Shown here: one piece after another, positions 179 through 19,478 of the stretch
Layout: every line of letters begins with the position of its first letter
Position numbering within the stretch: position 1 is the stretch's first letter
NCBI GenBank assembly: GCA_009843785.1
Contig: VYCT01000290.1
Location: forward strand, 1 to 33,262
Direction of reading: 5' to 3'
DNA: 33,262 bases
Source: Candidatus Poribacteria bacterium
GTDB taxonomy: Bacteria > Poribacteria > WGA-4E > WGA-3G
Notes under the pieces: generated by a model
What the model saw: the letters and a program-made list of their open reading frames with translations, nothing else
What the model was told of the DNA's origin: nothing
The model's database searches: none
Program-made: the position numbers and the translations under genes

Positions 179-1762
179 TTATTTTTCGTTCATTTCCGCT
201 GGCTTTACAGAAATTTTTGCGCGAAAGGCATTGACACAAACTTCCTCTTCGTCGGAGTATCCCGTAATACCCAACTTAAAAAGTTGACCTTGGTTAAAAC
301 GATGTATAATTTGTCCTGTCTCACCGGATGCACTCCATGCCCACGCAAGGATATCGTCTTTAAATATTCCTTCTTTTCTGGAGAGTTTCTTATCGCCGTT
401 AAGCAGATAAAACGTGCCATCACCATCTCCCCTGCCGACTTCAATATCAATGGTAAGCCTGCCGCCGTTTTCAAAGGCAGTCGTATCAATCACAACGACG
501 GTGTAATGCTGATGATCGCCTATTGGTGTCGAAAAAGTGTCCAATACGTTCTGCGAAGGATGGTCGCTGGTGAGGATAAGATTGCCTAATCCGGGCTGTC
601 TTCCGTTCAAAGCTTCCTTGAGAAATGTGAGATAATACGCATCGCTTTGGAGTCCCCTGGTTCTGCTATCCTTACCGAGTTCATTGACGAGTTGTCTACC
701 TATTAATTCAAAGGCTGGTGATATGACGAGGCAATCTACGGGTGAGCCTTTTTTTGACCCAGCTTTCCAAGCCTTGATAATCGTTTGTGCTAAGGGGTGT
801 GTTGTATCAAATGTTTTGGATTCACGTTCGCGTCTTTTAGCAATCGGTTCCCTTAGGCTGCGAATACGTCCTAATTCAGAGTTAGGCACCCATGTGTTAA
901 TGAAGTTTTCATTCAAGAATTCAATGATTTGATGATTAGAGAGGACACCTGCCCTCAGGCCCTTGCCGCTCCCTCAGCAGGACTCGTCAGCGAGCGGACC
1001 ATCTATCGAAATAGCGTGAATCGGTTTCTGTTGCGCAGGAGCCATTTCCAACGCTTCTTCAAGCGATACCCAGTTAATCTGCTGCGATTTGTAGAAGCAG
1101 CGTATCAATTTGTGCCCTGCTGCTTCTTGTGTAACAGATTCTCTGAATTCAGTGTTCTGCAAAACATCTTCTGTTCCAGCGCGGAGTTCGATTTGTGGGC
1201 AGAAGCCGATGTCTGTAAACCATTGAGAATCGTCAGAACCTCCCGTTTTATTCCACCAAGTGTCAAAGTTCAGAGTGCCTTTAGGAACATGCATCTGAAA
1301 GAAGGCTACCCTCTCGTTGGCTCGATCAATAACAAGATGTCCAGCAAACTGTGACGGTGTAAACCAACCGTTCTCTAACTTAAACTCCGCATGAATGCGA
1401 AACACAATGTCAGCGAATTCAGCGTTGTATGCGCGTAAACATGCCCATAGTCCACAGGAATCCCCTGAATCGCCGTGCATATCAAGATGGGGTTCAGGAT
1501 GGAGCTGCTTCAGCAGTGCCAGAACACCAGCATGTTCAATTTCCCAGAGTGTACCGACAGAAACAGCCTCCTTCGGAAGGAAATCGCAGAAGATTGAGGC
1601 GGCATACTGTTTTTGAGGTTCAGCAACGCACAGATTTATCAACGCGTCCCACTTCTCATGAAAATTGTATTGTGTGTATTCAATCGGCGCAATAAAACCT
1701 TTAACGGACACTTCTGTGTCATTGTTAAGATTAAGGGTTATTTTATTTTCGATCATTTTCAT
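179..1762 (-). CDS. Candidate selenoprotein, copy 2 (Cys-Sec motif, thioredoxin-like C-terminal half)
   Basis: A single reading frame of about 527 residues starts at ATG 1762 and ends at TAA 179-181. It is interrupted once, by TGA at 974-976 (residue 263). A standard caller would give two genes, 974-1762 and about 179-916, but both lie in one frame and the codons between them are open. The UGA sits in SC-UGA-GSGKGLRAG, directly after a Cys, and is followed by a hairpin (941-956). I read it as selenocysteine. The part before it has no family I recognise; the part after it (FLNENFINTW and onward) resembles thioredoxin-like proteins only loosely. The whole gene is a paralogue of its upstream neighbour, whose stop overlaps this start (AAATGAAAATG), so the two are probably translationally coupled. 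The alternative, two separate proteins per copy, is less likely because the second half has no good start of its own. Confidence 0.78.
941..956 (-). promoter_or_regulatory. Bacterial SECIS-like hairpin of copy 2
   Basis: Read on the minus strand, GAGGGC-AGGT-GTCCTC begins 18 nt after the UGA: six pairs (one G-U) closing an AGGU loop. Bacterial SECIS elements lie just 3' of the UGA with the apical loop about 16-37 nt away and a G early in the loop; here the loop is at +24 to +27. The 16 bases are identical to those of copy 1, although flanking wobble positions differ. Confidence 0.72.
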
Positions 1763-3387
1763 TTTTCATTCTTCTCCACAGAAATTTTGGCGTGAAAGGC
1801 GTTGATGCTCCCTTTTTCACTCCAACGGTTCCCAGTAGCACATAATCTAAAAAGTTGACCGTGGTCGAAAGGGTGGGCGATTCGTTCCGTGTCACCAGGA
1901 TCTATGTGCCATACTGTGGCAAGTGCGTCAAGTGCTTTCACATAGTCTGCACCTTGCTGACTATTCCATATGTCGGCATCAATGCCGTCGGGTGCTTTTT
2001 CCGTCGGAAGTGCTTTGGTGCCGTCAAACAGATGGAATTTCCCCTTTGCATCGTCTGTGCCGACGTGAATATCGATAGTGAGCGTGCCACCGTCTTCAAA
2101 GGCTGTGGTATCAATGACGACAACAGTATAATCTTGGTGCGCCACCATCGGCGTGCGAAACGTGTTCAATACCTCCAGAGAAGGTTGTTCTTTTCTCAGG
2201 ATAAGATTCCCCAATCCGGGGCATCTTCCTACCAAGGCATCCTTTAGAAATGTAAAATAATACGCATACGCTCGGAGGCCTCTACGCCTACTGTCGTCGC
2301 CGAGGTCATTGACAGGTTGCCTGCCCATTAATTCAAGACCCGGTGAGATAATGAAACAATCCGCCGGTGAGCTCTTCTTTGAGCCCGTTTTCCATCCCTT
2401 CATGATAGTTTGGGCTAAAGGGTGTGTCGCAAAGTTCTTGGATTTGTGTTCACGTCTTTTCGCGATTGCTTCCGATATATTCGGTTTAGGTGCTAATTCA
2501 GTGGTGGTTATCCACGTATTAATGAAGTTTTCGTTCAAAAATTCAATGTTTTGTTCGTCAGAGAGGACACCTGCCCTCAAACTTTTGCCGCTCCCTCAGC
2601 ACGCTTCGTCAGCAAGTGTTCCGCTTATAGAAATGGCGTGAATGGGTTTCTGCTGTGCCTGTGACATCTCCAACGCGTTTTCGAGCGGTACCCAATTGAT
2701 CTGCTGGGATTTGTAGAAACAGCATGCTAATTTGTGTGCTGCTGCTGCTTCCGTAATAGATTCTGTGAATTTTAAGGCTTGCACACCTTTTTCCGATCCA
2801 GAACGGAGTTCTATTTGTGGGCAATAGCCAGCATCGGTAATCACAATGCCTGGATCCCATCCATCTTCTGTCGTTTCCCAATTGACATCGAAGTTCAGTA
2901 TACCTTCAGGAACGCGTAGTTGGAAAAAGGCTACGGTTTCCTGGCTTCGGTCAATAACGAGATGTCCTGCCAACTGTGAGGGTGTGAACCAACCGTCTGG
3001 TATGGCAAATTCTGCATGGATACGAAACATAATGTCGGCAAATTGATCGTTGTACGCGCACAGGCATGCCCATTTTCCACAGGAATCGCCACCATCGTTC
3101 CGCATGTCCAAAGATGGATTCGGGAGAAGTTGCTGGAGCAACGCGAGGGCACCCTTTTCTTCTACTTCCCAACACTCACCAACAGAGACAGACCGGCCAG
3201 GCAGAAAGGAATCGAAAACGGAGGCTGCATACTGTTTTTCTGGTTCGGCGACTTGCAGATTCGCCAAAGCATTCCATCTCTTATGGAAGTTGCTTTTAGT
3301 GTACGCAATTGGAGCACTGCAGCCTTTAACTGAGACTTCTGCGTCACCGTTAAGATTGACTGTAATTTTGTTGCTGAAAGTTTGCAT
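1759..3387 (-). CDS. Candidate selenoprotein, copy 1 (Cys-Sec motif, thioredoxin-like C-terminal half)
   Basis: The frame runs from ATG 3387 to TGA 1759-1761, about 542 residues, with one internal TGA at 2596-2598 (residue 264) in the context AC-UGA-GSGKSLRAG. Conventional calling splits it into 2596-3387 and about 1759-2580; both are in the same frame. The start at 3387 is chosen because MQTFSNKITVNLNGDAEVSV aligns with the start of copy 2 (MKMIENKITLNLNNDTEVSV) and the promoter lies just upstream; longer starts would include the promoter. The N-terminal half holds WFTPSQLAGHLVID and CPQIELRSGSE, shared with copy 2. The C-terminal half has the NENFINTW segment typical of some thioredoxin-like proteins. 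The final TGA is taken as a real stop: copy 2 has TAA at the aligned position, and no hairpin follows. The Cys-Sec pair suggests a redox or metal/thiol role; this is inference. Confidence 0.78.
2563..2578 (-). promoter_or_regulatory. Bacterial SECIS-like hairpin of copy 1
   Basis: Minus-strand GAGGGC-AGGT-GTCCTC, starting 18 nt after the UGA at 2596-2598, gives a six-pair stem and an AGGU loop. The GGU in the loop recalls the SelB-binding loop of E. coli fdhF (AGGUCU). It is identical to the hairpin of copy 2, while the spacer between UGA and hairpin carries synonymous or near-synonymous changes. Confidence 0.72.
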
Positions 3388-18101: not shown

Positions 18102-19478
18102 ATGAAAAACGACGATGTTACATTGATCCAACGCATCCTTTCAGGTGACGAGACTGCCTTCGCGAGTCTGGTTAGAAAGTACCAGAAACAGGTTCATGCG
18201 CTTGCCTGGCGGAAAATTGGGGATTTCCATATCGCCGAAGACATCATGCAGGAAGCCTTCCTGCAAGTCTATCAGAAATTGGAGACCTTGGAAGATCCGA
18301 CGAAGTTTCCAAGGTGGCTTTATGTGATTGTGGATCGCCTCTGTATCGCGTGGTGCCGAAAAAACCGGCTACAGACCGAACCGTTGGAAGACCCTGATAC
18401 CACGGAAATGGAAACAGAGGCATATTCCCAATTTGTCGCTATGCAAAACGCTCACACTTTTGCTGAGGCGCGACGCGATTTAGTCGAAAATTTGCTTGCT
18501 AAGTTGCAGGAAAGCAGTCGGACAGCCATTACGCTGCACTACTTTAAAGGAATGACCTACGCAGAAATAGGTGACTTTTTAGGGGTATCAGAAGGTACAA
18601 TTAAGAGTCGCATCCGCCGTGCGCGGCACAGGTTAAAGAAGTATAAATTCATGATTCAAGAGGCACCAGACTCCACAATTGAAGCGGAGCATCGCTCCCA
18701 AGAACATTTGAAGGGAGGCTTTGAAATGCAATTAACTTTTGAAAAAGATAATCTTTTGGACGCTTTACAAGTGATGCAGGGTGTCGCGAGTCGGCAGCAG
18801 ACTTTACCAAATATTCTCATCCACGCCGAACGGAACACGGTTGAGTGTATAGCGACAGACACGGAAATTGGTATTAGAATGAGGATTGAAGGAACAATCA
18901 AGGAGAAAGGCACTATCGTTGTTTCCGCCCAAAAATTGGCAGATATTGTTAAAGAGCTGCCGGCTGAGAAGCCGATAGACTTGATAAAGACGGCAGACAA
19001 CCGGGTTGAAATCATTTGTGGGGATGACGTTTACAAGATCGTTGAACTTGCCGATAAAGAATTCCGGCAACTCCCTTCCGTTGGCACGGAAGTATTCACC
19101 ATTGATGGAGGAACCCTACGGTCGGTCCTCTATAAACTTGAATTTTCTACAGATACGACAAAGGTTTCCGAGGAAGTCCGTTACTTCTTTTTAAATGGGC
19201 TCTATCTGGATGAAAGTGGCGTTGGTGCGACTGTTAGAAAACAACTTTCTCGCGCACATTGCGACCCTCTTAAGTTGTCTGAAGATAGCCACGGATTTAT
19301 GGTACCCCTCAAAATCCTCGAAGAAATTGAGCGCACTTTTGTCAATTCTTCAGAAGTAAGAATTTCACGCGTTGAGAATCAGATGCTTTTTGCGGATGAA
19401 CACGCTACTTTGATATTTCCGGTCGGGAAAAGGTATTTTAGAGAGGCATCACTAACGATACCAGGCGTAAATGCTTAA
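18102..19478 (+). CDS. ECF sigma factor fused to a two-domain DNA sliding-clamp (DnaN-like) module
   Basis: A 458-residue fusion. Residues 1-190 are an ECF sigma factor: region 2 (FASLVRKYQKQVHALAWRKI, then AEDIMQEAFLQVYQKL) and region 4 with a helix-turn-helix (GMTYAEIGDFLGVSEGTIKS). Residues 209-458 look like DnaN, the polymerase III beta clamp: domain I (MQLTFEKDNLLDALQVMQGV, then TLPNILIHAE and KLADIVKELP) and domain II (FTIDGGTLRSVLYKLEFSTD to FPVGKRYFREASLTIPG). A normal clamp has about 366 residues and three domains; this one stops where domain III would begin. The clamp part has its own start: AAGGGAGG at 18711-18718, seven bases before an in-frame ATG (18726). So both the fusion and a free clamp-like protein could be made. 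ECF factors direct RNA polymerase to special promoters; the job of the clamp part is unknown. Confidence 0.82.
   Translation: MKNDDVTLIQRILSGDETAFASLVRKYQKQVHALAWRKIGDFHIAEDIMQEAFLQVYQKLETLEDPTKFPRWLYVIVDRLCIAWCRKNRLQTEPLEDPDTTEMETEAYSQFVAMQNAHTFAEARRDLVENLLAKLQESSRTAITLHYFKGMTYAEIGDFLGVSEGTIKSRIRRARHRLKKYKFMIQEAPDSTIEAEHRSQEHLKGGFEMQLTFEKDNLLDALQVMQGVASRQQTLPNILIHAERNTVECIATDTEIGIRMRIEGTIKEKGTIVVSAQKLADIVKELPAEKPIDLIKTADNRVEIICGDDVYKIVELADKEFRQLPSVGTEVFTIDGGTLRSVLYKLEFSTDTTKVSEEVRYFFLNGLYLDESGVGATVRKQLSRAHCDPLKLSEDSHGFMVPLKILEEIERTFVNSSEVRISRVENQMLFADEHATLIFPVGKRYFREASLTIPGVNA
18711..18728 (+). promoter_or_regulatory. Internal ribosome-binding site and in-frame start of the clamp module
   Basis: AAGGGAGG, seven bases, then ATG in the frame of the fusion, exactly at the residue where DnaN similarity begins. 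It is better than the Shine-Dalgarno of many genes in this window. Confidence 0.6.

Follow-up and report, generated by a model that had tools for sequence, protein, structure and literature searches.

A tandem pair of probable Cys-Sec selenoproteins in Candidatus Poribacteria and the large family to which they belong

The thioredoxin active site is WCxxC, with the first Cys as its nucleophile, and the thioredoxin reductases with a GCUG tail are flavoproteins in which selenocysteine (Sec, U in one-letter code) is the penultimate residue. A catalogue of 2026 lists 119 prokaryotic selenoprotein families and subfamilies (PMC13188914). Here we analyse two adjacent genes of an uncultured Candidatus Poribacteria bacterium (contig VYCT01000290.1) that share a vicinal Cys-Sec motif in a predicted thioredoxin-like site. 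The window, which is the whole stretch of DNA that was analysed (33,262 nucleotides), is one contig of a draft genome of 6.17 Mb and 97% completeness from the phylum Poribacteria, whose members are mostly sponge symbionts. The genes and the elements that bear on Sec insertion are as follows.

1759-3387, minus strand: selenoprotein gene 2 (P0002), the upstream copy; 542 aa with Sec264, a single frame across the UGA
179-1762, minus strand: selenoprotein gene 1 (P0001), the downstream copy; 527 aa with Sec263
2596-2598, minus strand: Sec codon UGA of gene 2 (codon 264)
974-976, minus strand: Sec codon UGA of gene 1 (codon 263)
2563-2578, minus strand: bacterial Sec insertion sequence (bSECIS) hairpin of gene 2, GAGGGC-AGGT-GTCCTC; stem kept across the family with compensatory changes
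941-956, minus strand: bSECIS hairpin of gene 1, identical in sequence to that of gene 2; stem conservation and covariation

When the frames of both genes are joined with TGA read as Sec, each contains a single in-frame UGA inside the sequence C-U-GSGK-x-LRAG, and the joined proteins are 62% identical over 546 columns in a BLASTP alignment that spans the UGA. An earlier note on this DNA had described two paralogues, each of one frame with a single UGA at residue 264 or 263, and its coordinates and residue numbers are correct. Gene 2 terminates at its own true stop, the UGA at 1759-1761, and the start codon of gene 1 lies upon that stop in a 4-base overlap (ATGA, 1759-1762), which makes the two a coupled pair. 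Since UGA serves as a real stop both here and at 53 of 141 ends of relatives, its decoding must depend on context.

The region beyond the internal UGA is constrained to the same degree as the region before it. In comparisons of gene 2 with its paralogue and three orthologues, the ratio of non-synonymous to synonymous substitution rates (dN/dS) is 0.15-0.26 on the N-terminal side of the UGA and 0.18-0.23 on the C-terminal side, and the region past the UGA is therefore coding. The orthologues, from three genomes, are 81-87% identical to gene 2 and all carry the TGA; homologues are not split at this point, and run through it as one gene. The motif site is TGA in 155 of 155 distinct homologous sequences, and the matches listed over the site each contain at least one TGA. 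Among 85 Poribacteria genomes searched, the pattern Cys-UGA-G-x-G-K gave 307 matches in 63 genomes and a reversed-pattern control gave none, while the same pattern with Cys for UGA matched once, by chance, in a 34-codon stretch. The machinery for Sec insertion is complete in the window genome, in which all four genes are present: selA (600.6 bits), selB (345.6 bits) with the adjoining tRNA-Sec gene selC (78.1 bits) on the same contig (C234), and selD (361.5 bits). The selD gene has an in-frame TGA of its own (G000:C132:36283-37206) and is probably itself a selenoprotein gene, a trait of selenophosphate synthetase that is known elsewhere. A tRNA-Sec was found in 73 of the 85 genomes, including every family-bearing genome of 1-4 contigs.

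In both genes a 16-nt hairpin starts 17 nt past the UGA, confirming the identical sequence and equal distance that had been reported for it, and it has the properties of a bSECIS element, being just downstream of the UGA with a G in its apical loop. Between the two window paralogues synonymous change is close to saturation (synonymous divergence, dS, about 1.4-1.7), so that a shared identical hairpin is not simply the result of recent duplication. Of 149 distinct members, 145 (97%; 130 in the main register and 15 shifted by two) have the full six-pair stem, against an expectation of 3.5% when codons are redrawn with protein and codon usage kept. The 42 nt after the UGA have a folding energy 1.67 standard deviations below synonymous recodings, while six control places in the same genes range from -0.25 to +0.19. 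Codons within the stem are frozen: Arg is AGG or AGA in 149/149 (background 28%), Ala is GCA in 140/140 (43%) and Leu is CTC in 143/149 (17%). Stem variants are compensated (GAGAGC/GCTCTC, CAGGGC/GTCCTG, TAGGGC/GTCCTA and GAGAAC/GTTCTC), and when covariation was counted on 31 distinct stems with 500 shuffles, the observed percentage paired and number of pair types were reached by 0/500 and the covariation score by 1/500, with weaker results for two double-change measures (32/500 and 39/500). No slid register matches the true one. The SECIS models of Rfam gave no match to these sequences.

The glycine codon directly after the Sec UGA is GGG in 135/149 members, though GGG makes up 16% of Gly codons in these genes, and this preference may be a UGA context effect. 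The same GGG is able to pair with a CUCUC further on, a pairing without covariation. Antisense to the selenoprotein gene at 1070-1151 (plus strand) lies an Rfam mir-268 match below the gathering score, which is a chance match.

With sites that are only ever UGA, equal selection on either side, a conserved hairpin and the sel machinery all pointing the same way, both genes almost certainly encode full-length selenoproteins, with Sec inserted at the internal UGA. The earlier note had named conserved UGA context, continued coding and a conserved hairpin as the marks of Sec insertion, and all three are upheld; its central proposal, a tandem pair of undescribed Cys-Sec selenoproteins, is likewise supported by the sel genes, the unbroken homologues and the position of the Sec.

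The domains of the proteins, as delimited on the AlphaFold model of gene 2 and its alignment with gene 1, are these.

2755-3387, minus strand: N-terminal domain of gene 2, about 211 aa, an all-beta meander
2215-2784, minus strand: Sec thioredoxin-fold domain of gene 2, residues about 202-391
1762-2184, minus strand: C-terminal beta-sandwich domain of gene 2, residues about 402-542, with Foldseek matches of GOLD, collagen-binding and subtilisin C-domain type
593-1162, minus strand: Sec thioredoxin-fold domain of gene 1, aligned with gene 2

The model of gene 2 has a predicted local distance difference test (pLDDT) score of 83, and at full length its Foldseek matches are DsbH (2ju5), a DsbH-like domain in 7tkv and a thioredoxin from Thermus (2lst), together with beta-sandwich proteins. 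Around the Sec the predicted order is strand 249-254, the C263-U264 loop, helices 268-274 and 278-287, strand 289-294, strands 343-347 and 353-358 and a last helix, that is, a beta-alpha-beta-alpha-beta-beta-alpha core with the active site ahead of the first core helix. From this model we consider it highly likely that the Sec domain has a thioredoxin fold. The N-terminal domain modelled alone reaches a pLDDT of 91.5, and Foldseek found no match for it in the PDB (best E 0.22, with a template-modelling score (TM-score) of at most about 0.2 on the query); given so confident a model without a match, it may be a new fold. Its invariant residues include R122 and H124 (FRIH). A fold search against viral proteins returned generic beta-sandwich noise only. 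By a simple hydrophobicity rule 36 of 144 members have a signal peptide, neither window copy among them.

Three architectures occur in the family. That of the window genes joins the N-terminal domain, the Sec domain and a beta-sandwich, with some members having two sandwiches (about 670 aa); a second has the N-terminal and Sec domains alone (about 360-400 aa; G013, G014, G000:C53); and a third follows them with a linker resembling tetratricopeptide repeats (TPR) and a TlpA/ResA-like domain. In the third, Pfam identifies AhpC-TSA, Redoxin and Thioredoxin_8 (E 1e-12 to 4e-22) as well as TPR, and the best PDB relatives of the redox domain are ResA and TlpA. Members of this kind are found at L166 8850-10865 (minus strand), L176 2370-4271 (plus) and L177 2337-4151 (minus); the TlpA-like CxxC is intact in L177 (CGFC), and its first Cys is gone in L166 and L176.

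The sequence C-U-x-x-G is present in 33/33 aligned members, with C, U, G, K and R invariant across the three architectures, and none of these 33 has a CxxC, UxxC or CxxU redox motif at this site. When model and alignment are set against WCxxCK, U falls at the first Cys, an invariant Cys at the Trp and Gly at the resolving Cys. We suggest that the hairpin 17 nt downstream would direct SelB and tRNA-Sec to insert Sec at the internal UGA, and that the selenolate would then attack an oxidized substrate, either a disulfide or a peroxide. Resolution of the product might fall to the adjacent Cys, through a Cys-Sec selenenylsulfide, or to another thiol protein, of which the TlpA/redoxin domain fused on in one branch could be an example. 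The N- and C-terminal beta domains probably bind substrate or partner, gene amplification may diversify binding specificity, and the members with signal peptides, about a quarter, would act outside the cytoplasm. A redox catalytic role of this kind is likely, and full-length Sec proteins with a thioredoxin-like site and a redox mechanism are, with good confidence, the best overall explanation of the data.

Several observations weigh against this explanation. The thioredoxin matches of Foldseek are modest (E 1e-4, TM-score about 0.6 on the target), and they are placed on the middle domain by inference from the type of match, because its order of strands and helices follows that of thioredoxin. 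The Sec domain has no significant thioredoxin-clan match in Pfam, NCBIfam or PDB sequence profiles, so that the thioredoxin assignment rests on AlphaFold and Foldseek. The minimum-energy fold of the window's own 42-nt stretches is not the hairpin but a longer alternative pairing, of GGGAG after the UGA with CUCUC; it shows no covariation and was rejected, and folding after each UGA, proposed in the earlier note, favours the alternative on energy while covariation backs the local hairpin only. Seven family-bearing draft genomes lack a tRNA-Sec match, and the gene neighbourhood has no conserved partner gene, the only shared synteny being in four genomes, beside leuC/leuD and a carotenoid-type cluster. 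No homologue with Cys at the Sec position was found in the 85 genomes, other phyla having been scanned by short exact peptides only; thus of the Cys/Sec homologues that had been anticipated at the UGA, the Sec half stands, in 155/155, and the Cys half does not. The loss of this classic argument is more than offset by the conservation of the bSECIS element and the purifying selection past the UGA.

A substantial minority chance attaches to a narrower proposal, that the protein is a peroxidase with a lone peroxidatic Sec and no CxxC, in the manner of glutathione peroxidase (GPx) or peroxiredoxin (Prx), rather than a disulfide oxidoreductase. The resolving Cys is missing two residues on (U-x-x-G), the fusion partner in one branch is from the AhpC-TSA/redoxin clan and redox enzymes make up most of the Sec proteins in the catalogue (PMC13188914), three points that a peroxidase would accommodate; the closest folds are nonetheless DsbH and thioredoxin-like rather than GPx or Prx, and Pfam gave no GPx/Prx catalytic signature in the Sec part. 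We cannot choose firmly between oxidoreductase and peroxidase, and the best reading is of a new family of Sec enzymes of one kind or the other, tandemly expanded in one order of Poribacteria.

It is unlikely that the vicinal Cys-Sec instead binds or transforms a metal or metalloid (mercury, arsenic or copper), or carries selenium, without redox turnover, as in the CU motifs of SaoC and HgcA. Catalogued CU-motif families do include metal-linked ones (PMC13188914), one Foldseek match is the copper-binding CorA, and there is a very weak NCBIfam match (E 0.11) to a relative of ArsD with vicinal Cys; none of these matches is significant or located on the Sec domain, however, and no conserved metal-resistance genes lie nearby.

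A reading of the UGA as a normal stop codon that is read through at a low level (by Trp or another near-cognate), yielding mainly a 263-residue product and a minor extended form without Sec, is very improbable. The truncated product would hold the whole of the confidently folded N-terminal domain, which suits such a scheme, but TAA and TAG would be equally good as leaky stops and the UGA is invariant, as are the redox Cys and the GK around it; constraint downstream equals that upstream, the hairpin is selected beyond the needs of the protein and covaries, and the genome has a complete sel machinery. An assembly or sequencing artefact, or a pseudogene decayed by a nonsense mutation, is already refuted and retains virtually no probability, for while the window comes from a metagenome assembly and some related fragments and relics were found, the same UGA occurs in 155 distinct sequences from independent assemblies, closed chromosomes included, and the genes are under purifying selection.

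The selenoprotein pair belongs to something larger than had been supposed; the tandem pair is real, and its actual extent is a large family. Relatives were detected by protein search in 65/85 Poribacteria genomes, with up to 23 matches per genome, pieces included, while strict motif sites reach a maximum of 12 per genome (in two genomes) and number 10 in the window genome. Tandem arrays are found, for example with six or more members in 13 kb (genome G071). A variant, CUANGK, is present in G027 and G028 with the UGA retained, so that Sec was kept where GS became AN. A profile search of 20 other Poribacteria genomes found no member, and the family is thus confined to one order within the genomes examined. 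Named matches in the genome collection, which was scanned by short exact peptides that would miss distant members, were all Candidatus Poribacteria; other phyla may contain members that are not annotated. No relative turned up on plasmids, in phages or in viral contigs.

Some other genes resemble parts of these proteins. At L190/L192 (G029:C1 near 5456000) the N-terminal domain is present as a degenerate copy, interrupted by a long coiled-coil insertion and lacking a Sec domain, and L186 (G029:C1), at 1426-2820 (minus strand), is an extracytoplasmic function (ECF) sigma factor with a C-terminal part that matches the beta-sandwich domain of the selenoproteins. In the window itself, 18102-19478 (plus strand) is a single open frame of 458 aa with an odd fusion: an ECF-type sigma factor comes first (residues 23-180; Sigma70_r2 and r4), and a DNA polymerase III beta clamp follows (residues 209-434; DNA_pol3_beta E 3.6e-20, central domain E 3.7e-6). 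Attaching varied C-terminal domains to sigma factors may be habitual in this group.

By a published rule an organism with at least six selenoprotein genes is selenoprotein-rich (PMC5029168), and many Poribacteria would qualify through this one family. In standard gene calls every member comes out split or truncated, and the proteins are therefore likely to be missing from sponge metaproteomes. An enrichment of SelA and SelB among sponge symbionts was reported in 2017, with no client known for them (PMC5649159), and the Poribacteria family is a strong candidate for that role. With hundreds of paralogues and none with Cys, the family is also a natural test of Sec retention. Taken as a whole, it seems rather probable that this is an undescribed Sec-obligate family with a new-fold N-terminal domain and a vicinal Cys-Sec in a thioredoxin-like site, which has about ten or more paralogues per genome, has never reverted to Cys, and makes one order of Poribacteria selenoprotein-rich.

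We found no literature joining Poribacteria with selenoproteins, within partial coverage of that literature, and a paper on Poribacteria genomes from single cells makes no mention of selenium (PMC3909097). Searches of Pfam and NCBIfam with 35 members gave no meaningful E-value, nor did PDB profiles, and no entry among the 119 of the catalogue fits both motif and architecture (PMC13188914). The likeness to the GCUG tail of thioredoxin reductases that had been drawn earlier extends to the vicinal Cys-Sec-Gly and fails beyond it, for here the Sec is internal (264 of 542 in gene 2) and belongs to the active site of a thioredoxin fold, about 280 residues follow it and Pfam finds no flavoprotein domain. 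The catalogued UGSC-containing protein NF041046 shares the string U-G-S, but its NCBIfam model gives no match at E 1, and the new family has Gly at the fourth position and an invariant Cys before the Sec. The UGC-containing TlpA family, Trx7/PDZ and other thioredoxin-like selenoproteins (PMC13188914) are also bacterial Sec proteins of thioredoxin-like fold, with motifs that are UxxC, CxxU or UGC and in no case CUxxGK with this architecture. Closest in fold are the DsbH-type/Thioredoxin_7 proteins (PDB 2ju5, 7tkv, 2lst), which share the order of strand, active site and helix and in which the first Cys of CxxC aligns with the Sec; the new family differs in having no significant sequence match to them, C-U-x-x-G for CxxC and a large uncharacterized N-terminal domain. 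Among the known thioredoxin-fold selenoproteins, it is a new family.
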